From Pomphorhynchus laevis (Eukaryota > Acanthocephala > Palaeacanthocephala > Echinorhynchida > Pomphorhynchidae), in the NCBI GenBank assembly GCA_012934845.2, contig WNNJ02002553.1, forward strand, positions 124,001 to 188,000: a DNA stretch of 64,000 nt, in the 5' to 3' direction. This document shows positions 23,100 to 54,010 of this stretch, piece by piece. A program made the position numbers and the translations under genes. Each line of letters opens with the position of its first letter. The stretch's first letter is position 1. The notes under the pieces were generated by a model that was not told the origin of the DNA, did no database searches, and saw only the letters and a program-made list of their open reading frames with translations.

Positions 23100-26000
23100 A
23101 GTCTTTATTTATTTACTTTAATAGATGTGAAACTTATGAGCTTTTATTTGCGAGTATGTCAATAGCACATAAACTGTTCACTCTTGGTGTTTTATATAGA
23201 GCACCTCAAGCTGACTGTTTGGATGATGAATTTCGTGTTTTAGTTAGACGTGCATTCAATGGTACTAATTCGTGCATTTTGGTGGGTGACTTTGACATTC
23301 GCGGGACTAGTGTTTGCATTGGTTCGACTCCGCAATTCTGATGTGCAGCGGATGGGAAGCTTTGGAAATTTATTGATGAGGAGTTTCTACTTATTCAGCA
23401 TTTTCCCTCGAGGTTTCCTTCCACACATTCTTCAGTTTTTGATCTTATCTTCTCACGGATGATTAACGACATCTACAACCTGTGCTGTAGTGATCAATAC
23501 AGTGATCACTATAATACAGTGATCACTGCATTATAAAGTTTAGTATTAATATACCTGGTGGTCGAATAGGCGAGAATACTGAGCCTGTATTATCAAAGCA
23601 CATGAAACACAATGTGAAAGAATCTCATCTTGTAGAACATGCATCATCTGTAACGTTTCACAATTCTAGTTTTGATGTTAATGAACACTGTAAGTCAATT
23701 CGAGAATATCTAATAATGATATTAGATCAATATTCACGGACGATTAACGACATCTATAATTTGGCTATGAAGCTCTAATCGGTGTGTTTGCATTGGTTCG
23801 ACTCCGCAATTCTGATGTGCAGCGGATGGGAAGCTTTGGAAATTTATTGATGAGGAGTTTCTACTTATTCCGCATTTTCCCTCGAGGTTTCCTTCCACAC
23901 ATTCTTCAGTTTTTGATCTTATCTTCTCACGGATGATTAACGACATCTACAACCTGTGCTGTAGTGATCAATACAGTGATCACTATAATACAGTGATCAC
24001 TGTATTATAAGGTTTAGTATTAATATACCTGGTGGTCGAATAGGCGAGAATACTGAGCCTGTATTATCAAAGCACATGAAACACAATGTGAAAGAATCTC
24101 ATCTTGTAGAACATGCATCATCTGTAACGTTTCACAATTCTAGTTTTGATGTTAATGAACACTGTAAGTCAATTCGAGAATATCTAATAATGATATTAGA
24201 TCAATATTCACGGACGATTAACGACATCTATAATTTGGCTATGAAGCTCTAATCGGTGACAGTGATCACTGCGTTATAAGGTTTAGTATTAATATAAGAG
24301 GTGATCAAATTGATGAGAATACTGCGCATGTATTATCAAAGCGCACGTGACACCGTGTGAACGAATCTCATCTTGTAGAATATGCATCATCTGTGATGCA
24401 TCTGTGATGCACATATTGTATATCTGTGCATCTGTGATGTTAATGAACACTGGAAGTTAATTCGAGAATGTCTAATAATGATATTCGATCACTTTGCTAA
24501 ATAGAAACAAATATAAATTAATTCAAAAAATGCTCGTATGAAACGTCCATAGTTTGACAGTAGTCTTTAAGAAGCTCTTAAGAGATGCAACGATTTGTTC
24601 ATAAAATGTCGACGACACAAAGGTAATCTGATCACTTAATTCAAACTTGCTCGAAATGCGTATAAACCGCTTCGAGTGCTGAAACGTATGGAGTATGAGG
24701 GCCAAATTATGTAATCTTTAAGTAGTTCTCCCAAACGTTTTTGGTCATATGTTCGTCAAGATGCACGTTCTTATTTTGAAAGCACTAGGTTATCTTCGCA
24801 TGGGAAGTTGATTGATTATCATCAGATATTGCTAATGAATTTGCTTATGCATTGGAGCTATGTAATGCTAATTCTAGTGTAGCTGATACCTTTCGAAGCA
24901 TCAGCTTCCCTGAGTGTTAAAGTGCTCCTATTATAATCAATGAAAAGGACGTGATCCGCAGATTATCACAATTGTCGTATTCATCTTCTTCATGCCCCGA
25001 TGGCATTCATCCGTATCGACTCAAATTATTAAGTCAACATTTGTCTCCTTCAGTCACTAGCTTGTTCCAGGCATCCTTGGATAGCATGCAAATACCTTCT
25101 GAATGGAAGTGTGCAGTAGTTGTGCCGTTGTTCAAAAAAGGTGGCCGCCGTTTAATTGACAATTATCGAGCTATAAGCCTTACGAATCATCTGGTCAAGA
25201 TATTCGAAAGAATTATTTACGATCACATAGTCGAGCACATGAGACACATGTGAACATAGCTTTATGCAACATGTTTCAGGAAAGAACGTTCTTGTCTTAC
25301 GAACTTGTTGTTTGCCTGTGAAGCATGTATAGATCCAGTTCAGGGGAAGGCAGTGGATGTTGTTATGTTCAATTTTAGTCGTGCGTTCGACTGTGTTACC
25401 CAAATTCATATCATTTAGATAGTGGTCTAATATGGCATTAATAACCTAGTTGTAGGATAGATTAATTATTTCCTTTCTAATAGAGCTTTCCGCGTATGAA
25501 GTGGTAGTATATTATCCTCGCCACGTTTATTTACGTCAGGAGTTCCTCAGAATACTGTGCTAGGACCTTTATTGTTTAATATGTTCATGAACAGTCTACT
25601 GACTCAACTGAACTGTTCTTGTTTAGCTTTTGCTGACGATATAAAATATGGTGTGAGGTATAATCTGAACAATACCATATCCGCTTACAGCGTGATATGG
25701 ATAGGGTTCGTAGGTGGAGTGTTAACACCGGCCTAATATTAAACATTTCGAAGTGTTCACACATACGGCTCGGTAGAACCTATATTTCTTCCTTGTACAG
25801 TGTCGGGTTCTGTGGAATTATTTCGATTAATCAAGTTGTGATCTAGGCATACTTTTGAAATCCACACTGAAAACTAGAATGAACAATGACAGACGCTGCA
25901 GTTCCGCTAGAAAGATGCTTTATCTGATTAAAAACCGTTTTTTGTCAGTATCTCCACTCTGCTTTGTTCGTCTATACAACGCGCTAGTTCGTCCTCATAT

Positions 26001-32777: not shown

Positions 32778-35700
32778 CTAAGTACTGCATTTGCCTTTCA
32801 TTGATTCAACTTCTAACCATTCTTTAAATTTAACGTAACCTAAACAATCGCTTACAAATGAAACGTTGCGAAAACAGTTTCTATCTTACCCGTATGTTTC
32901 ATATATTCCGATAATTCTATCATTGTGTATGTGAATGAGTGGCCATCAGTCGTAGTCAATTTTAGATTTTTAAAATTATTGTACAAATAATTTTGACAAA
33001 TCCTATTACATGCAACATATCCTGTATTTTTTCCATAATTCAGGTAAAGTATTACTCCAAATCCCCTGTGCCAAGTTTAATAGCGAACTCACAAGTATAC
33101 GGATAATCAGCAGTTACTTACTTTAAAGTTTGATCGAACTTTGTTACCTTGATGTAGTAATAAGAATTATTAGCGTAATCTTCTAATTTACGACACAGCT
33201 AAAACGCGACAATTCAGGAATTGATGTCAGATTAGATGTAGAGCACTTACCGATTTCTGCAGGTCATATTTGTAGTCTTCGACAACATCCGTAGTATCAG
33301 TGAACGTGATTTTGGCCCGTTGTTCTAAATAGTTTGTTCATTGACCAGTGAGTATAAATTTATTTGATAATGTTACTCAAGTTATTCGTTTGGCCATCGT
33401 TTCTCTCGTTTATAACTTCAAACCATTTTGTCAATGTGATCGATACTAAAACAAAAGAGAAACTCGCTTATTAGCAGTAACCAGCATTTCGATCAATCAT
33501 ACCTCCTGGTTTTTGAATGGATTTTAGATTGATTATATAATTATATGGTTCATCTTTGTATAAGCTAATAACTGCTACCATTTTATTTTCAAATTCCTTT
33601 AAGCATTCTTTACCATCATCTGTTTTCTTGCAGTATAATTTAACATTATATAACCTAAGTATAAAAATTCAATTGTCGTTAATTATCGATTAATTAAGTG
33701 CGAGTATCGATCGCCTCAACCGCCCTGCGTATCGTACTTTAACTTTTTATTTAATGTACCAACTTTGACGTAGAATGCAGTGAGGTTCGGATTGTCAGCC
33801 AACACATTGTTAATCTGAATAAAGCGATAAGAAAAAAGTTATGTTCATTCGAGTACATCAACATTACATTCTTTTGCATGTACAGTTGAGTAAATAAATC
33901 AGATTGAAGATTTGACATCATCATAATCCCATACATTCCCGCAAATTCTAAAACAAGCACATAACCATATGAATAGCAATTGATGTTGATGAATCGTTAC
34001 CATAATTGTTGGTTTCGCAACCATTCCTCATTTCGTCGGAAATAAAATCTGCAGGTGCAACAGCCACTGAAAAGACACAAATAAATTATAGCGACGAAGC
34101 TAAGGGGCACGACACGTACCAAGATTAGATTCAATATGTTTAGGTGGTGTAACTGTGCAATTTGCTCCTGATACTAATTTGATGTCTTTGAGGTTATCGC
34201 TGATAAACGCAATGCATGCATTGCGTTTATCACACTTTTCCGACAACTTGTAGTAGATCGTGATCGGAAATGAGCTAAACACGGATACAAACAATTTTGT
34301 ATAATGTAATTACAAAGATTACTTTGTTGTTGAATCGAAGACGGAAGATTTGATAAAGAACGGCACACCTTTAACATCTTCTGTCATGTCTGCCAATATT
34401 CCACACAACTTAATTAGATAACAGTTTTACAGACATTATCGGCAATCAATTTTTTTACAATTCTCTGAAAAGAATCTGTATTTTTATCATTATCCTCAAT
34501 AATGCCAGACACGGTGCATGCTGCCTCTATTTCTAAAGAGATTAATATTGGATTAGTAAATAAAATGTATCGATGAACAAATGAGTGAGCAAGACGATTT
34601 TGCTATAAATTAAAGCAAATTAAAAACGAAGGATCGTTGTAACGATTAGTTTATTGACAACGTAAATAGCTTTCGAATGGGATCAAACGAGCATAGCGCT
34701 TGTTTGATTACAATAGACGAATGTATACAAATTTGCACATTAAAGAACCAATTCAATGTTTCCTATGAAACTCAACAAATGCATTTGTTTACGAATCCTC
34801 GAATGAAGTGTTAGCTGATTTCTGAAATCGGCTCTACTGTACAGCTTTAGAATGTAAACAACTCATTCTGAAAATGCAAATCATTTGAAAATTCACAACC
34901 AATAAACGCCATTCCTATATTCAATTGTTTACAATTGAATTAGCATCAATCAACATAAATAAACGCCATTCAATTGTTTACAATATACAATTAGCAAATC
35001 AGCAGCAATCAACAACTGCGTTCTAGTTCGAATTTGTGTTCTGCGAACGGATTCACTGCACAACTCTAGAATTCAAACAACTCATTAGCAGTCATACGTG
35101 TTAATACAAGGTTAACGACGATGCCATTTGAAAATTCATTCCTATATTTAATATGCAAAAGTTAATCAGATCAAATGCCGAGTTAGTTAGTATAAATTGT
35201 CAAAGCTTTCGCCGCATTACAGCTTCGTCAGTGGCTAATCTGAAACATGGAACACATTAATATCGTCACAAATACATTAACAATTAATAACATAATTAAT
35301 ATTTATCATTGCATCGAATCAAGCAAGCCCACCGCCTTGTCTTTATTGTTGAGTCTCTTGTCGCTATCTGCACCCGATATTAAGATTACCTTCATTAGTT
35401 TTCGCGACAAAACATTATCTGCTCGGTAGAGTACATTTGGGCTGCACTTTAGGTGCTCATTTGGATGTTGCTGTGAATAATGCGCGGCCTATGTATTGCT
35501 GGCGTAAGAAGGCGCTGAAGGGTTTCGTGCTGCTCTTAAATGTTCCTTGAGCCGTTCAGAAAACGGATGTTGTGTTTCTCCTATGTAGCAAACATTATCT
35601 CCTACAGTAGATTACTCATCACAAAACATTTTAGAAACTACATTATGTTGGTAGCACAATGAAGCATTATGCTGTTTGCTTTTGTGGTCAAAGATCGGAC

Positions 35701-38700
35701 GTGCTCTCGTGCACGGTGGTGACTCCTCGTAAAAGCGACTGCGAATTAGTCGATTGTTAATATCCCTCTTCAAACTGTATGGGTGGGTTGATCGTTTATG
35801 TGGCGTAAGATTAAGCTTTGTGGGCTTCTGATACCACTCGTATTGCTTTACTTTGTTCTGTCCAACGAGACGTTTAAGAATGTCACGTGTCAATCAGCAC
35901 CGGTAGTCGTTAATTCTGTGGTCAAACGACAGTTGTTGTCCATTGTTTTGACAGTATCGACTAAGGTTTGACAGCATAGACTGGCCTCATACACGATAAG
36001 CACGTCGTCAATGTAGTTAAAGTAATGTGTGACATTTTGTGCGAGGAATTCATTGTTATAGATAAAAGTAATCTCAAGTCTATCCAAATACACGATCGCC
36101 AGGATTGGGGCGAGATAGTTATCCATTGAGAGTCTTTTTATTTGTTGATAGAATTGATTATCGCACTTAATAATGTCACACCGTAGTGTTGTCCTTACTA
36201 AGTGGGTGATATCGTCGATACGGTGGCTAAATCCAAACAGCTGTGGATCGACATTATGTAGAATAGCTTTTAAAGAATGAACTACTGCCTCATTGTCTAC
36301 ATTTGTATTTAGTGCAGTAAAGTCAATCGTCGTGATGTGTTGTTGAATGAGAACAACTGAGAACTGTGCACATCAGTTGTGTTTGAAATATAGCTACGTG
36401 CATGCTTTAAAAATGGGGTACAGAGTCTTGTGATAACTTTCGAAATCCCGTATGCTGGATCATCTATAGCAGGTATGATCGATCTGCATTTCAAGAGCAA
36501 GGTGTTAATCTAATTGGTCACCGGTGAATTTGGTAATTTATGTTTTTATCATATTATATAGTACCGGTACGACAGAAAATTTCTGTACACATCGAATTGT
36601 AATTTTCTTATCAACTGCAAGTTTCTTGCATATGCTAGTTCATACTCTGTTTATCTCCTAATATCGTTCATTGATGGCCTTCTTACCTTTGTTCCCCAAA
36701 CATACGTAAGTAGTTGATTCATAAAGTGCTTCACTAAGTTCCCTCGACGAGTTGCGTTCTCCTGCTGAGAGGTTGCTGTTACCTATCGTACAGCCTAAAG
36801 ATTTCTCAGCAAAGCTCGCGAATCGACGTTCTTGTTACAAAAACATTTTTCGGGAAACTTGAAGTCTTTGAGGAAATCGAAGTCCATGTCTAAAAAGCGA
36901 TTTGCATTTTGTTGAGGTGATATCGCTTCACGTAACTAGTGCTTAGTGCTGGTCATCTGATTTATCCAGTACATCTAGTAGACGACCGATAGAAAGTTGC
37001 CATTCTATTTTCCCATCATGGACGGTTGTGAAGATGGATTAAACTAGGGTCCTAGTAACAGTGGGTCGTTCCAACTGGTAATTATCAAGTCGTCTGGGAC
37101 TTGGTTAAAGGCAGACTTGAAAACAAGTTCAATGACCTGTTGTACATGAATCAATCAATCGCTAAAAAAGGCAGCATGAACAAGGACACATTGCACCGAA
37201 GTATGCGTTCTTAACTGTATCAGGATTCAACGTCGCATCCACTATGCTGGCTGCTCCAATGGTGTGGATATACATTTTTGTATGTTACTTTTGATAGGGG
37301 ATCGTATTCTAACGATCTATAAGAAACCTACCTAGTTGTATGATCTGCTAGCCGGATCACTGTTTTTCATGCTGCCACTTGCAATAAATGCTTAATTTAA
37401 TTAGATCTATGAGTTAAAATTCTTCTAATTGTAGCACGACATTATCTTTACATATATTGTTCCTATTCTTGATACATGACAATACTAATAAGCCTGAGAT
37501 GATCTCATCAGCTGCTAACCCAGACCTACATTTCACATTTCGACACCTATTATATGCATACTCCGTACAATGATGCTGGTTGGATTTGAACTCAAGACGT
37601 CTATATCGCGATTCATACATTTCACGTTTCGACCTTTATTATCTGCTTTCTCTGTTGACTGATGCTGATCGGATTTGAACTCAGGACGTATGTATCGCGA
37701 TTCAATTTTACATTTACTAAGATGGCTGCTCCAGTGGCGTAGATAAAAAATTTTGTATTTTACTTTTAGTATGGGATCGTATTCCATTGATCTATTATAA
37801 ACCTACCTTAGTTGTGTGATCCGCTGGCCGGATCACTGTTTTTCATGTTGTTACTTACAATGAATGCTTCTAATATAATTTGATTGCATCTGTGAGTTGA
37901 AATTTTTCTAGTTGTGGCACGATATTATCCTTACATGTATTGTTCATATTCTTGATACAGCTGGCCGCTGCTAATCATCCTGTGTTGGTCTCATCAGCTG
38001 CTGACCCAGACCTACTTTTCACGTTATGACCCTTATTATCTGCTTACTACGTACACTGGTGCTGATCGGATTGGAACTCAGGACGTATGTATCGCGATTC
38101 AACGCTACATCCACTAGCCTGACTGCTCCAGTGGTGTAGATATACATTCCTGTATATTACTTTTGGTAGGGGACCGTATTCAAACGATCTATTAGAAACC
38201 TTCCTTAGGTGTGTGATCCGCTAGCCGGATCAGTGCTTTTCATGCTGCCACTTGCAATGAATGTTTTTAATTTACAGTATACTAGCAAGTCAGCAATAAC
38301 AACCCTACAGGAATATGGTGGTTATCCAATCCTTCGCTGTCATAACCTACAGTGAATCTATTAACCACCCTAGTTTCTTATGCGCTGTTTGACTTACTGG
38401 AGATATCATCATTTCCCTCGTCTAGTTGCCTCCTCTTTTTAATCAATTTAATTTTCAATTTCTGATTGTCGTTGTCACTGGACGCTATTCTCTTCTTAAA
38501 AGTTGATGTTGGTTTGGGAATAAGTTTAGGAGTCACCATGGCAACGATAAATTTTGCTACCATTGATTCCATATTATCATCAAAGTCAGAACATTTAATC
38601 AAACATTGATTAAATGTCTGAGCTGGTATCCTGCAATCGGCTCAAGTGTATCAATTTACAATTCAAAAATAACATTTATAGTAATGCGTGATAAAAAAAT

Positions 38701-39584
38701 CTAAAACCATAATCTTCTTTCATTTCAATTACATGGTTTTATTGGAACAAAGAAAATAATTTTCCTTGATGTTAAATAAAGAAAAATTATTTCCTTATTT
38801 GTTCCAATAAAGCTATAGTAATTCGTGAAATTAACGACGAGGTTGTTGACTATAAATTGTGAGGAAGTCAGCATTCAACAACTCCGTTATCGTGAGAATG
38901 AACGCAAACAATAAAGTTTGATGTTTGCAATAAAGTTTACACTTTTCTTAACTAAATTGATTAATATGTAGTTTTCGTTAGAATTGAACGATTAAGTCCG
39001 ATGAATCCAACAATTTTGAAAACTTATAATTCAAAACCTATAACATTTCAAAATTAATAATAAAACATTAAATTATAGTGTGAAATCTGCAACGAAAAAT
39101 CAAATGTATCAAATCACTTACTGCTTCCTATTGGTGGATCAGGGGTTGTAGTCGTAGTGGTTAGTACTTGAGTTGTAGTCGTAGTGGTTAGTACTTGAGT
39201 TGTAGTTGTGGTGGTTGGTACTTGAGTTGTAGTCGTGGTGGTTGGTACTTGAGTTGTAGTCGTGGTGGTTGGTACTTGAGTTGTAGTCGTGGTGGTTGGT
39301 ACTTGAGTTGTAGTCGTGGTGGTTGATACTTGAGTTGTAGTCGTGGTGGTTGTCGTTATGGAGTTAAGTATTGGCAATATTACTGGGGATGCTGACTTGG
39401 TTGACTTACGTAAACCAACAGCAACATCTACGTATACTACAATAATGACCACACCGAGACACAAAACTACGGCAATAACTATATCCCATAACCTTTTTTG
39501 GAATTAATAAAAGCATAGAGCAGAAATATTAGAGGCAACTTACATTTTGAGTTTGGAAGGCTTGCGACTTTGATTTATATCCAT
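32778..39584 (-). CDS. Novel 14-exon gene: type II membrane protein with Thr-rich stalk and Cys-rich ectodomain
   Basis: Exons, minus strand: 39584-39544, 39492-39122, 34532-34459, 34408-34323, 34274-34120, 34066-34001, 33947-33868, 33814-33738, 33654-33503, 33445-33377, 33324-33251, 33198-33122, 33065-32890, 32839-32778. All introns are GT...AG (acceptors mostly TTTTAG or TTTCAG), all phases agree, and the sum is 1560 nt or 519 codons plus stop. Intron sizes are 48-57 nt except 83 nt (intron 8) and 4589 nt (intron 2). Residues 1-14 MDINQSRKPSKLKM are basic and cytoplasmic; 18-35 are hydrophobic (IVIAVVLCLGVVIIVVYV), a signal anchor; 60-130 are Thr runs with QVP/QVL/QVS spacers, likely O-glycosylated; 138-519 form an ectodomain with 12 Cys and sequons NCT, NLT and NNS. 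I recognise no domain. Weakest junctions: acceptor ATTAAG (exon 4) and the 4.6-kb link from exon 2 to 3, which is supported by matching phase only. Role unknown; a cell-surface protein is inferred. Confidence 0.82.
34541..35189. other. Intron 2 part of the membrane protein gene, nothing recognised
   Basis: AT-rich, with local near-repeats (AATAAACGCCATTCAATTGT twice near 34912 and 34970). No exon-like segment with matching splice sites was found here. Confidence 0.5.
35190..37000 (-). mobile_element. Penelope-like element with RT and GIY-YIG endonuclease, inserted in intron 2
   Basis: Minus-strand coding traces in order: DFKFPEKCFCNKNVDSR (about 36870-36800), IIPAIDDPAYGISKVITRLC (36470-36410), LFGFSHRIDD (about 36240-36210), MDNYLAPILAIVYLDRLE (36126-36070), HYFNYIDDVLIVYEASL (motif C, YIDD, 36030-35980), a Cys/His-bearing linker, and CYIGETQHPFSERLKEHLRA (GIY-YIG domain, about 35600-35540). 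Stops and frameshifts interrupt it (for example 36126 and 35620), so it is decayed. The 3' end near 35195-35235 has ACTGACGAAGCTGTAATGCG then GCGAAAGC, a hammerhead-like PLE end. It lies in the same orientation as the host gene. Confidence 0.8.
37205..38290 (-). repeat. Array of tRNA-derived SINE family 1, minus orientation
   Basis: Three partial units in tandem. On the plus strand the recurring block is CTGCTCCAGTGGTGTAGATA (near 37730 and 38126; a variant near 37252) and GGATTTGAACTCAGGACGTA (near 37673) with GGCCGGATCACTGTTTTTCATG-like segments (truncated here to avoid quoting the unit). On the sense strand each unit has a pol III A box (AGCCTAGTGG-like) and B box (GAGTTCAAATCC). Same family as 41.3-42.8 and 45.2-45.7 kb. 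It sits in intron 2 of the membrane protein gene. Confidence 0.75.
38378..38632 (-). other. Candidate exon or small coding remnant within intron 2
   Basis: Minus strand: an acceptor-like GATTGCAG at about 38638-38631 is followed by an open frame reading IPAQTFNQCLIKCSDFDDN, MESMVAKFIVAMVTPKLIPK, then a Lys/Arg-rich KLKIKLIKKRRQLDEGNDD, ending at a donor-like CCA/GTAAGTC near 38393. Composition looks coding, and it is bounded by consensus splice sites. Its phase (needs two bases upstream) does not fit the one-base end of exon 2, so it is not part of the main transcript as assembled. It could be an alternative or nested gene exon, or a transposon remnant. Function unknown. Confidence 0.3.
38700..38830. 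repeat. Small foldback element, copy 1
   Basis: Inverted arms ATTGGAACAAAGAAAATAAT and, read in reverse, ATTGGAACAAATAAGGAAAT (plus-strand right arm near 38787-38815) enclose about 20 bp. The left flank (AACCATAATCTTCTTTCATT) matches the left flank of the element at 44861, so both belong to one family. Confidence 0.65.
39145..39357 (-). repeat. 27-bp coding minisatellite (Thr-rich stalk)
   Basis: Inside exon 2 of the membrane protein gene, a 27-bp unit (plus strand GTTGTAGTCGTGGTGGTTGG plus TACTTGA) repeats seven times, encoding the 9-residue unit TTTTTTQVP with variants ending QVS or QVL. Unit length is a multiple of three, so gain or loss of units keeps the frame. Expected to be length-polymorphic. 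Confidence 0.9.
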
Positions 39585-40535
39585 GATTCTCTAAATGTTT
39601 TTCAATGCGTTCCCGAGCCTTTCCCCAGTATTTATAAAAACATTTTACAGTTACTGACTCATGTGCTAATACGCACAAATGATATATACATTATGTATTT
39701 ATTACCTGTACTTCTAAGTACAAGTTGTTATTCCCTCTACTAAAATACATATTTTCTATTTTCTACGTCGAAAATTTACTCGTTTTTGGTGTACATAGTC
39801 TTGATTATGCGAAATTTAAGTAGAGACTGTATTGCAGAGGCTTGTCAACGTTTAAAAATAGAACAATAGAACACAATTGTGTGTGGCTAATTGTTAAGCT
39901 GTTATTTATACTTTTGTTGCTATTAGTTTTATCTCTACTAAAATAAAATCATCGACATTCAAAATTCTCTATTTTCTAAGTTTTACGACATTTCGCCAGC
40001 AATAAATAATGTTGTCAACATCAAAAATATAATATATATATTACATCAAAAAATATATAAATAATATATATTATAAAAAATATATATTATATAAATAATA
40101 TATAGTTTAGAATATAAGGTTAATTAATTTTTCTAACGCTTTCTGGATATTAGCTAAATCCAAATTTGTTTAAAATCGGGTTACTGGGTAGTTTGCATCA
40201 TTAGCTACTTTTTACATGATGTTGGCAACATCATGTCTTCGTGCTGGCATACATATTTATTTGCACTACGCTCCCTGAGCACAGTGTTACACATTCAACG
40301 ATAAAATTATATATTCAAGATATTTTATAACTAAATTGTATATTTTATAATCAATAGTTCAAAATTAATAAACGTTTAAAAACTCTGTTTAAATTGTATT
40401 TGCATTTTTATAAATTTTATCTGATAATTATATTTATATTATAATTATATAATTATAATTATATTATTCATTTACTTCGTGTCCTTTGTTGCTAATTGGT
40501 CAAATATTTAAATATAAGCCCTACTCGAAAATAAT
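39585..40535. other. Upstream region of the membrane protein gene
   Basis: AT-rich 5' flank (on the minus strand) of the ATG at 39584. No clear TATA box or initiator could be chosen. Includes simple AT repeats at 40020-40110 and 40430-40470. Confidence 0.4.
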
Positions 40536-41404: not shown

Positions 41405-42835
41405 AGAAATGTATATCTACACCACTGGAAAGCAGTGATCCGGCTAGCGAATCACACGCTTAAAAAAGGTTTCTAATAGATTGTTAAACTACAATCCCCT
41501 ACCAAAAGTAATATATAGAAATGTATATCTACACCATTGGAGCAGCCTAGTGGATGTAGAGCTAAAACGCGATCCGCATCAGTGTAGAGAGTAAGCAGAT
41601 ATAAGGTTCGAAACGTGAAACGTAGGTCTGGACCAGCAGCTGATGAGACCCCTCCCATGCTGATTAGTAATACCCTGTTGTATCTAGAATAGAAACAATA
41701 CATGTAAAGATAATATAGTGCCTCATTCAGAGGAATTTCAGCTCACAGATGCATTCAAGTTAAATTAAAAACATTAATTGTAAGTGGCAGCATGAAAAAC
41801 AGTGATCCAGCTAGCGGATCACACACATCGGGTAGGTTTCTAATATATCGTTAGAATACGATCCCCTACCAAAAGTAATATACAGAAATGTATATCTACA
41901 CCACTAGAGCATCCAGCCTAGTGAATATAGCGTTGAATCGCGAGACAGACGTTCTGAGTTCCAATCGGATCAGCACGAGGGTACGGAGTAAGCGGATAAT
42001 AAGGGTCGAAACGTGAAATGTAGGTATGGGTTAGCAGTTGATGAGAATCACACATCATGATTAGTAGCGTATAGGTGTATCACAAATAGGAACAATACCT
42101 GTAAAGATAATATAGCGCCTCATTCAGAGGAATTTCAGCTCACAGATGCATTCAAGTTAAATTAAAAACATTAATTGTAAGTGGCAGCATGAAAAACAGT
42201 GATCCAGCTAGCGGATCACACACATCGGGTAGGTTTCTAATATATCGTTAGAATACGATCCCCTACCAAAAGTAATATACAGAAATGTATATCTACACCA
42301 CTAGAGCATCCAGCCTAGTGAATATAGCGTTGAATCGCGAGACAGACGTTCTGAGTTCCAATCGGATCAGCACGAGGGTACGGAGTAAGCGGATAATAAG
42401 GGTCGAAACGTGAAATGTAGGTATGGGTTAGCAGTTGATGAGAATCACACATCATGATTAGTAGCGTATAGGTGTATCACAAATAGGAACAATACCTGTA
42501 AAGATAATATAGCGCCTCATTCAGAGGAATTTCAGCTCACAGATGCATTCAAGTTAAATTAAAAACATTAATTGTAAGTGACAGCATAAAAAACAGTGAT
42601 CCAGCTAGCGGATCACACACCTAAAATAGGTTTCTTATAGATCGTTAGAATGCGATTCGTTACCAAAAGTATTATACAGAAATGCATATCTAAACCACGG
42701 AGCAGCCAGCATAATTAGTGTAGCGCTGAAACGCGATCAGCTAAAGTGCAGGGAGTAAGCAGATAATAAGGGTAGAAACGTGAAACGGAGGTCTGGAATA
42801 GCAGCTGATAGCATCAGCTTATTGACATCGTAATA
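41405..42835 (+). repeat. Tandem array of tRNA-derived SINE family 1 (397-bp units)
   Basis: Unit marker CCTCATTCAGAGGAATTTCA recurs at 41721, 42118 and 42515, an exact 397-bp spacing; units 41721-42117 and 42118-42514 are nearly identical, with a diverged partial unit on each side. Each has a tRNA-like part with A box (AGCCTAGTGGATG; GTGAATATAG variant in the middle units) and B box (GAGTTCCAATC here, GAGTTCAAATCC in the 45.5-kb copy). A downstream module reads GGGTCGAAACGTGAAATGTA then a TGATGAG segment. Pol III transcription is inferred from the boxes. The module looks like a hammerhead core in the type II order (see findings). Confidence 0.85.
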
Positions 42836-46928: not shown

Positions 46929-47357
46929 TTATGCTACAGATTGAGCATTCGACACGACCTTGGGCCAAAGATCAGCACATTCCTTTGCAACGGGCCCAGT
47001 AATTGCAGAGCCTTTCATTTCTCCTTTCTCGTTGACAATAACTCCTGCGTTGTCCTCAAAATAAATGAACGTTCCGTCCTTTCGACGATATGGCTTGCGC
47101 TGTCGAATCACCACTGCCAGTAAAACTTTCTTTCGTAATTCTGGCTTACCTTTCTTCACAGTAACAATGATAAGATCCCCAACACACGCAGCCGGCAATC
47201 TATTCAAACGTGCACCCCATCCACGGACACTAATAATGAACATATTCTTCGCTCCTGTATTATCTGCACAATTGATAACCGCTCCAACTGGTAAACCCAG
47301 AGAAATTCTGAATTTCTTGTCGCTTACACCTCCGGTACGTGCTCTTTTCGAAGACAT
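46929..47357 (-). CDS. RPL23: Large ribosomal subunit protein uL14 (RPL23)
   Basis: 142 residues, close to the 140 usual in animals. The protein is a structural component of the 60S subunit near the sarcin-ricin loop and the intersubunit bridges. Conserved blocks: [64 protein letters not shown] and [18 protein letters not shown]. The N-terminus ([15 protein letters not shown]) is basic and slightly longer than usual. The coding region is a single exon although the gene next door has many small introns. TTTTAG immediately precedes the ATG, exactly the acceptor form used by that gene, so a 5'-UTR intron (a possible donor GTTAGTAAAT near 47458) or spliced-leader addition is likely. No stops or frame damage, and conservation argues for a functional gene and not a pseudogene. 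Confidence 0.97.
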
Positions 47358-51829: not shown

Positions 51830-53097
51830 TATCTTACGATTTACACCAGCACAAGCAAAATAGATTCAAAATTTTATTGAAAACGTTTCGCTCTTTGGAG
51901 CTTTGTCAATCTAGAGTGAGAGCACAATAAAGTTAACAATTAATAAAACAAAGTAATTGTTTAAGGTGGAATTATGTAATATCGACATCCCATTTGTAAA
52001 TGTGTTCTGAATTTAACCCATGATTAGTATCTGTTAATAGTTGACCTACAATTCTCTGCTCTTCTATTCTTCTTTCTTTAGTGTCGTTAATACCATCCTT
52101 TATTATGATATAGTCAAAAATATCCGAATTTTTTGAATGTGCTGAAATACAATGATGCACAATCGCGTCGCGATGTGTTAACTGTTTATTTATATCTGAT
52201 CTGCGATTATTAAGTCTCATATTCATGCTAAGTCCTGTCTCACCTACGTATTGTAGTTGACACAGTCTGCATGTTGCTAAATATACATTACCGTTTGATG
52301 CGCATGATGTATTGCCGTTTATTTTATATTCTAATTTCGTTTTGCTGCTAACGTACTTTGTAGCATTAATAACATTTTCACAACATTTTGTTCGCGCTCT
52401 TTGGCATTGTTTACATCCCGACATATTTTTGTTTCCTTGTCTTTGGAATTTTGACCGTATTAACCGGCGACCGATTGTGTTTGTAGCTTTAAAGGTTATA
52501 AATACTCTTTTGATTGGTTTTCCTATTTGTTTTGCTATATTACCTATTGATTCGTTAGCGTCGCATGATAATGATTGTAATGCCTTATGATAAGGGAAGA
52601 CGTAAATATTGTCACTGCATATTTTTTCTTTCGGCAAGTTTTTGGAATTTTTTAATAATATTAGACTTTTATTAATTGATCGATTAACCTCACGATAAGT
52701 ATATCCTCTCAGAATGAGCTGCTTTCTTAGATGGTCTATTGTATCTAGCTGTGATTTTGTTGTACTACATATTTTCAGGATTCTTGATGTTTCATTTATG
52801 ATCATATTCATCTTAATGTGTTTTGGGTGGGCACTCAACGGGTGCAAATGCATTTTAGGACTACTGGGTTTCCTATATATTCTGGTCTGCAATGTATCGT
52901 TATTGTCCCAGTAAATAGACACATCAAGGAAATTAATCGGAACTGTTCTATTTATCGTAAACTTTAATGGTCCGAAATTGTTTAGATTGTTAACGAACTG
53001 TTCTAAATGTTCGTCACCATCTTTCCAAACTAGAAAAATATCATCAATATATCTGTACCATATAAATGGTTTCCATGTACATTGATGAATGAACTGC
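51827..53097 (-). mobile_element. Penelope-like element with GIY-YIG endonuclease, minus arm of a palindrome
   Basis: The coding frame 53117-51972 (381 codons including junction sequence) starts inside the RT: WYRYIDDIFLVWKDG (motif C, YIDD), VPINFLDVSIYWDN, YRKPSSPKMHLHPLSAHPKH. The linker GCKQCQRARTKCC and CRLCQLQYVGETGLSMNMRL follow, the GIY-YIG domain with a preceding CxxC pair, and it ends KWDVDIT. The frame is intact from the truncation to its stop. The 3' end (51830-51960) has the end motif AAAGCTCCAAAGAGCGAAAC on the sense strand. This type of PLE enzyme nicks DNA with GIY-YIG and copies its RNA. Confidence 0.9.
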
Positions 53098-54010
53098 CAT
53101 CTAAGAAAGCAGCTCATTCTGAGAGGATATACTTATCGTGAGGTTAATCGATCAATTAATAAAAGTCTAATATTATTAAAAAATTCCAAAAACTTGCCGA
53201 AAGAAAAAATATGCAGTGACAATATTTACGTCTTCCCTTATCATAAGGCATTACAATCATTATCATGCGACGCTAACGAATCAATAGGTAATATAGCAAA
53301 ACAAATAGGAAAACCAATCAAAAGAGTATTCATAACCTTTAAAGCTACAAACACAATCGGTCGCCGGTTAATACGGTCAAAATTCCAAAGACAAGGAAAC
53401 AAAAATATGTCGGGATGTAAACAATGCCAAAGAGCGCGAACAAAATGTTGTGAAAATGTTATTAATGCTACAAAGTACGTTAGCAGCAAAACGAAATTAG
53501 AATATAAAATAAACGGCAATACATCATGCGCATCAAACGGTAATGTATATTTAGCAACATGCAGACTGTGTCAACTACAATACGTAGGTGAGACAGGACT
53601 TAGCATGAATATGAGACTTAATAATCGCAGATCAGATATAAATAAACAGTTAACACATCGCGACGCGATTGTGCATCATTGTATTTCAGCACATTCAAAA
53701 AATTCGGATATTTTTGACTATATCATAATAAAGGATGGTATTAACGACACTAAAGAAAGAAGAATAGAAGAGCAGAGAATTGTAGGTCAACTATTAACAG
53801 ATACTAATCATGGGTTAAATTCAGAACACATTTACAAATGGGATGTCGATATTACATAATTCCACCTTAAACAATTACTTTGTTTTATTAATTGTTAACT
53901 TTATTGTGCTCTCACTCTAGATTGACAAAGCTCCAAAGAGCGAAACGTTTTCAATAAAATTTTGAATCTATTTTGCTTGTGCTGGTGTAAATCGTAAGAT
54001 AAACATAAAT
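53098..54010 (+). mobile_element. Penelope-like element, plus arm of the palindrome
   Basis: Bases 53098-54003 are the near-perfect reverse complement of 52732-51829 (at the protein level only one substitution was seen, a Met/Ile in an antisense frame). The frame to 53859 keeps the linker and the whole GIY-YIG domain but no RT: HLRKQLILRGYTYREVNRS to KWDVDIT. The first residues before HLRKQ come from the junction. The 3' end ATTGACAAAGCTCCAAAGAG then CGAAACG lies at 53931-53947. Confidence 0.9.

Follow-up and report, generated by a model that had tools for sequence, protein, structure and literature searches.

The window analyzed here, a 64,000-nucleotide stretch of the 249-Mb assembly of the acanthocephalan Pomphorhynchus laevis (contig C1484, positions 124001-188000), carries on its minus strand a 14-exon gene whose ectodomain is one domain in three tandem copies of four exons each, and which belongs to the few members of a dispersed family that are whole. 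The existence of the gene and of its family is nearly certain. As to the role of the encoded protein, we give about even chances to a diversifying, mucin-stalked and probably host-facing surface glycoprotein of single-pass type II topology.

Splicing from 39584 to 32778 through 13 GT...AG introns yields a product of 519 residues that equals, in every letter, the deposited hypothetical protein P0001 (GJ496_003046). The original prediction from the letters of the window had given the same minus-strand structure, number of introns and length; its description of the gene as unannotated was wrong because GJ496_003046 is already on deposit. Its argument that the exons join by more than chance is in line with the spliced alignment of a relative: residues 25-400 of the deposited protein P0003, used alone, recovered the same 12 ectodomain exons except for the outermost base and the stop codon, and intron positions are kept among the relatives. 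An alternative exon 3/4 junction, giving 522 residues, was discarded since the deposited junction yields the phase pattern common to all three repeats. The ectodomain (residues 138-519) comprises 382 residues with 12 cysteines and three sequons, as had been proposed; the sequons are at 229, 301 and 425. While this anatomy was borne out, the triplication of the head, the family, the mosaic sequence and the pattern of selection had been missed and the deposit overlooked.

The triplication is apparent from the exons as well as from the protein. Exon sizes are similar between the copies, with 74, 86, 155 and 66 bases in repeat 1 (R1), 80, 77, 152 and 69 bases in repeat 2 (R2) and 74, 77, 176 and 62 bases in repeat 3 (R3), and the phases follow the same order (Table 1). 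Profile-profile comparison related the copies to each other with probabilities of 94.4% (R1-R2), 98.6% (R1-R3) and 97.0% (R2-R3), the scores of 47.4, 90.8 and 64.0 exceeding the best of 20 column shuffles (18.0, 16.4 and 14.4, respectively); the profiles held 4, 6 and 7 rows for R1, R2 and R3, with seven of the eight R3 rows being included in the last. Equal phases, similar exon sizes and mutual profile matches taken together indicate that the head arose through duplication of a four-exon unit. In an alignment of 18 repeats from nine loci, that of the window included, one tyrosine is invariant and one cysteine nearly invariant; the first row of this alignment reads alike in C1289 and C2673. 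The order of secondary structure elements in the repeats, strand-helix-strand-strand-helix-strand, is a guess by eye.

In the window protein and its relatives, an N-terminal basic tail is followed by one hydrophobic helix and a C-terminal ectodomain, which makes a type II surface protein likely, with basic residues also present after the helix in the window protein. The helix spans approximately residues 11-40. This pattern, together with the family and PDB searches described below, is consistent with the stalked type II surface protein without recognized domain that had been predicted. As in membrane-tethered mucins, the stalk is a Ser/Thr-rich tandem-repeat stretch of variable length, ranging from about 35 residues in C3127 to more than 200 in C1289 and C237; Thr-rich stretches longer than that of the window occur in C1289, C237 and C465. 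A helix and a Thr-rich open reading frame (ORF) precede the repeats in C1289, C237 and C2594, and likewise in C465, there in separate frames. The stalk is probably O-glycosylated; glycosylation and orientation are inferred from the sequence, as are disulfides, surface location, fold and a host-facing role.

Intron 2, which parts the anchor and stalk from the repeats, is 4.6 kb long and carries dispersed repeats in its middle, and the deposited P0003 (C1570) comes without the anchor/stalk exon. Both facts would suit exons 1-2 and exons 3-14 being two genes wrongly joined, an explanation that we regard as highly improbable. The order of parts in C1289 and C237 is that of the window, with some 1.6 kb between the helix/stalk exon and repeat 1; this exon ends in a phase-1 donor like that of the window, and the acceptor before repeat 1 was the same as in the window in all five loci inspected (C1570, C1289, C237, C3127 and C2201). 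Since C1289 and C237 keep order and acceptor, separate transcripts for the two parts are unlikely. Moreover, both ends of intron 2 match those of relatives, and the deposited P0002 (C3127) likewise joins anchor/stalk exons to repeats.

The 5' unit of this single gene is shared within the family. Exons 1 and 2 with the intron between them, preceded by the TATAAATAC box and the GCTCGGGAA-like motif, recur in C1289, C237, C2594, C1570, C3127 and C1305, and the seven loci including the window thus share the putative core promoter as well as the exons for tail and membrane/stalk. In C1570 (L012, L029) the anchor/stalk exon pair is located about 18 kb upstream of the repeats on the same strand. The unit of C1305 (L031) comprises promoter, exon 1 and exon 2 and looks broken because helix and stalk sit in different frames. 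DNA matches to the 5' unit, as matches only, were additionally seen on C2482 and C2116. An ORF of 87 residues within intron 2 (38381-38641, minus strand) was discarded as an exon, being out of phase and largely dispersed repeat; it has at least 28 dispersed-repeat matches, and copies of its first part occur on C1570, C3127, C2594, C1305 and C2482. By eye, a Penelope-like remnant was recognized in the same intron (35309-36927, minus strand), including a reverse transcriptase-like ORF (36372-35890) and a GIY-YIG-like CYIGETQHPF stretch (35611-35492).

When the assembly was searched at the DNA and protein levels, 22 contigs matched, that of the window and fragments included; the count is a lower bound that is, in the other direction, inflated by fragments (C1839, C2348 and C1364) and probable assembly duplicates (C1904/C813 and C1289/C2673). 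Eleven of 18 aligned loci were trusted for at least one repeat, and L017-L019, L021 and L026-L028, weak or spurious, were not counted. Among the trusted relatives, C1570 alone has the full set of 12 ectodomain exons without stop or frameshift. Two stops were found in C3127, the locus of P0002, one in C237, and stops together with one frameshift in C69. C2543, C214 and C1738 (L009, L010 and L011) have one in-frame stop in repeat 1 in common besides other damage, some of the stops in C2543 and C1738 being introns read through by the aligner; the shared stop implies that an already broken copy was duplicated. The single apparent frameshift of C1289 may reflect a miscalled splice site, and the last exon of this locus, which the aligner passed over, can be recognized by eye. 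C2201, C2594 and C2673, although incomplete, are open in the parts seen.

Members of the family are mosaic, as in a recombining multigene family of the kind known from the schistosome mucins SmPoMuc. Around exons 3-4, a tract of about 300 bases is 96-100% identical between the window and C3127 (exon 3, 1.00; exon 4, 0.99), compared to 62-88% in the nearby flanks, and is probably due to gene conversion. Similarly, in a stretch of about 3.2 kb covering promoter, anchor, stalk and exons 3-5, most 100-base segments of C1289 and C237 are 96-100% identical, with dips to 63% in the stalk and part of intron 2; beyond exon 5, in the rest of repeat 1 and all of repeats 2 and 3, identity falls to 45-79%. 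One of these mosaic breaks could result from an assembly misjoin, both less easily.

Selection was assessed codon by codon from the rates of nonsynonymous (dN) and synonymous (dS) substitution. Between the window gene and C1570, dN was 0.349 and dS 0.384, giving a dN/dS of 0.91 (bootstrap 0.66-1.20), with 0.51 for R1, 1.08 for R2 and 1.11 for R3; the range for R2 and R3 together was 0.76-1.62, and their dN lay above that of R1 by 0.18-0.38. Among the usable pairs of nine loci, the median dN/dS amounted to 0.51 for R1, 0.88 for R2 and 0.76 for R3, and a value above 1 was reached by none of 15, six of 21 and nine of 33 pairs, respectively (for R3, the 33 of 36 pairs with dS of 0.05-1.2). This set omits the broken C2543 and C214, whose ratios to the window were 0.66 and 0.80. 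Because genes recur among the pairs, recombination occurs in the family and some loci are broken, the pairs are not independent tests. Over 12 exons, neither the window gene nor C1570 has a stop or a frameshift. Simulated unselected drift from the frame of the window produced 7.6 stops per lineage, with zero stops in 0.2% of 2000 runs, or 4.4 stops, with zero in 1.2%, when one lineage took a quarter of the change. Judged by these comparisons, the frame is guarded, the membrane-proximal repeat is constrained and the outer two are less so, their amino acids appearing close to unconstrained or diversified; the data suggest positive selection without proving it.

Several observations weigh against a diversifying host-facing glycoprotein. 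The ratios are near 1 and not clearly above it, and broken loci (C3127, C237 and perhaps C1289) pull them towards 1, so that a decaying family under relaxed constraint is also conceivable. Of the 11 trusted relatives, 10 carry stops or apparent frameshifts or lack pieces. Introns were more alike than exons in six of seven pairs under lenient and in five of seven under strict gap costs; C1289-C237 was reversed under both and window-C237 under strict costs, and the shuffled and strict-gap controls, like the C1289-C237 pair, weakened the notion of slower evolution in introns than in exons. In single-sequence AlphaFold2, the membrane helix was the sole part modelled confidently, leaving the head without a confident model (mean pLDDT, the predicted local distance difference test, of 36). 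Finally, P0003 starts with a signal-like segment in place of the anchor/stalk exon. This start was absent as a single ORF from the 4.3 kb upstream of repeat 1 in C1570, and the deposited start may be wrong; a secreted form, raised by P0003, was not adopted.

The damage to the relatives, the in-frame stop common to C2543, C214 and C1738, short family fragments on further contigs and a dN/dS near 1 would all be expected if the family were decaying after passive spread with segmental duplication and transposons, the window gene being a late survivor with no special role. We regard this as very doubtful in view of the open frames of the window gene and C1570, where unselected change would have left about 7.6 stops per lineage, the constraint on repeat 1 and the retention of promoter and splice sites. 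A structural coat component, namely a membrane-tethered mucin in which the stalk is functional and the repeats are a loosely constrained spacer, would fit the very variable length of the Thr-rich stalk and the low amino acid constraint on the outer repeats. It is nonetheless unlikely: the head seems to matter because the tyrosine is fully and the cysteine almost fully kept across the 18 repeats, repeat 1 is constrained and the frames of the window gene and C1570 are open.

The search for known domains was made with hmmscan for the 522-residue model of the window protein, P0002-P0004 and the 18 repeats. In accordance with the claim that no family could be recognized, no Pfam or NCBIfam family passed the cut-off and there was no PDB match by sequence or by profile; sub-threshold matches were scattered, each of 20 families being matched by one of the 18 repeats. 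The SEA domain (PF01390) gave no hmmscan match in any of these queries. SEA membership was likewise unsupported by hhalign, with probabilities of 0.14-0.51% for four profiles, not beyond those of shuffled columns: against five SEA sequences, one of them partial, the 18-repeat profile scored 10.9 (0.15%), compared to a mean of 10.1 and a maximum of 14.25 in 40 column shuffles, and the best sub-profile, R2, scored 14.5 (0.51%), which was equalled by one of 40 shuffles. The SEA self-cleavage motif GSVVV, which some members lack, was absent from all 18 repeats as read by eye from the alignment. A genome search with PF01390 returned no match and was uninformative, its controls being silent too. Three protein searches matched only the P. 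laevis proteins P0001-P0004, a query with the window protein not recalling P0003, and the profile search of the protein database, with a first row of 100 residues, reached only proteins of 55-175 residues. A lineage-specific protein, as had been suggested, is therefore likely, although unproven because the searches were not very sensitive.

For the diversifying surface glycoprotein, we propose that the short basic tail would lie in the cytoplasm and the uncleaved helix would serve as anchor, and that the Thr-rich stalk, probably O-glycosylated and variable in length, would raise the head, three tandem copies of a small cysteine-containing domain, above the membrane. The outer repeats would be renewed via recombination between loci and fast amino acid change, the membrane-proximal repeat, anchor exon and promoter staying more constant. 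The protein would thereby most likely act as a host-facing coat or adhesin, changing the surfaces shown to the defences or tissue of fish or amphipod; the chance that the diversification is indeed host-facing is about even. Gamete-recognition proteins also duplicate and evolve fast, and a reproductive or gamete-surface recognition protein would leave the same evolutionary signature, host-facing and mate-facing selection not being separable from these sequences; we consider this role quite unlikely.

Comparable systems resemble the P. laevis family in part. VSG-type variant surface antigen families of protozoa, characterized by expression switching and antigenic variation, hold mosaic and broken copies alongside few whole ones, as does the P. 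laevis family, which differs in being built on a 14-exon animal gene, with matches on at least 22 contigs (fragments and probable duplicates counted). SEA-domain membrane mucins have small domains of about 120 residues beside a mucin-like stalk, in tandem in MUC16, and the membrane orientation of MUC1 and MUC16 is opposite to type II. The P. laevis protein shares the mucin-like stalk next to small domains, with a strand-helix order guessed by eye, whereas its predicted orientation is the reverse and both the GSVVV motif and a SEA profile match are lacking. The closest functional parallel appears to be SmPoMuc of Schistosoma mansoni, for which passages of the published description report a multigene mucin family with tandem repeats, mosaic genes made by recombination and pseudogenes (PMC2576457). 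These features of a parasitic-worm family recur in P. laevis as a functional likeness that implies no kinship. The same passages report splice variants, individual-specific expression and, for about 87-93% of transcripts, a ratio of synonymous to nonsynonymous change (KS/KN) exceeding 1, a sign of net purifying selection (PMC2576457), which is stronger than the near-1 ratios of the P. laevis family suggest; furthermore, the head of the P. laevis protein consists of three tandem domains and its topology appears to be type II. Lacking a gut, acanthocephalans absorb nutrients via the body surface (PMC7310846). Term searches of the literature, including the P. laevis genome and N. agilis transcriptome papers, gave no acanthocephalan mucin-like or diversifying surface family among the matches listed. 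A surface diversification of the Acanthocephala's own, with dispersed type II mucin-stalked proteins whose outer two repeats, of a domain unseen in known families, would be swapped among loci and diverge under host recognition, is a tentative possibility. If the family were tegumental, it would provide a concrete gene set for questions of worm-host defence and for comparison with schistosome mucins, and the idea of a constrained inner and faster outer repeats could be tested by sequencing a few worms.

Table 1. Features of the 14-exon gene and its surroundings in the window.
Feature	Position	Strand	Basis
Putative core promoter and transcript start: TATAAATAC box, then GCTCGGGAACGCATTGAAA at 39618-39600	39628..39636	-	Same arrangement before exon 1 in six relatives
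Exon 1: ATG start and basic tail (cytoplasmic), end phase 2	39544..39584	-	Splice; exon 1 counterparts in six relatives
Exon 2: membrane helix and Thr-rich stalk, ends in phase 1	39122..39492	-	Splice; counterparts before repeats in relatives
27-base minisatellite within exon 2, 7.7 copies, 97% matches, nine-residue unit of TTTTTTQVP type	39145..39352	-	Tandem repeat in the sequence
Intron 2, 4589 bases	34533..39121	-	Splice; ends match intron 2 of relatives
Tract 96-100% identical to C3127 paralogue	34250..34550	-	Identity in 50-base steps
Repeat 1: exons 3-6 (34532-34459, 34408-34323, 34274-34120, 34066-34001), phases 0,2,1,1	34001..34532	-	Splice, profile match
Repeat 2: exons 7-10 (33947-33868, 33814-33738, 33654-33503, 33445-33377), phases 0,2,1,1	33377..33947	-	Splice, profile match
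Repeat 3: exons 11-14 (33324-33251, 33198-33122, 33065-32890, 32839-32778), phases 0,2,1,stop	32778..33324	-	Splice, profile match

Elsewhere in the window, a single-exon ORF of 142 amino acids (46929-47357, minus strand) reads by eye as ribosomal protein uL14 (L23), and the other long ORFs look by eye like pieces of retroelements. Two facing ORFs at 51972-53132 (minus strand) and 53089-53859 (plus strand) have the same Penelope-like translation over about 250 residues and form an inverted duplication. Tandem repeats are located at 23310-24258, with a 474-base unit present twice (99% matches), and at 41589-42736, with 2.9 copies of a 397-base unit (92% matches).

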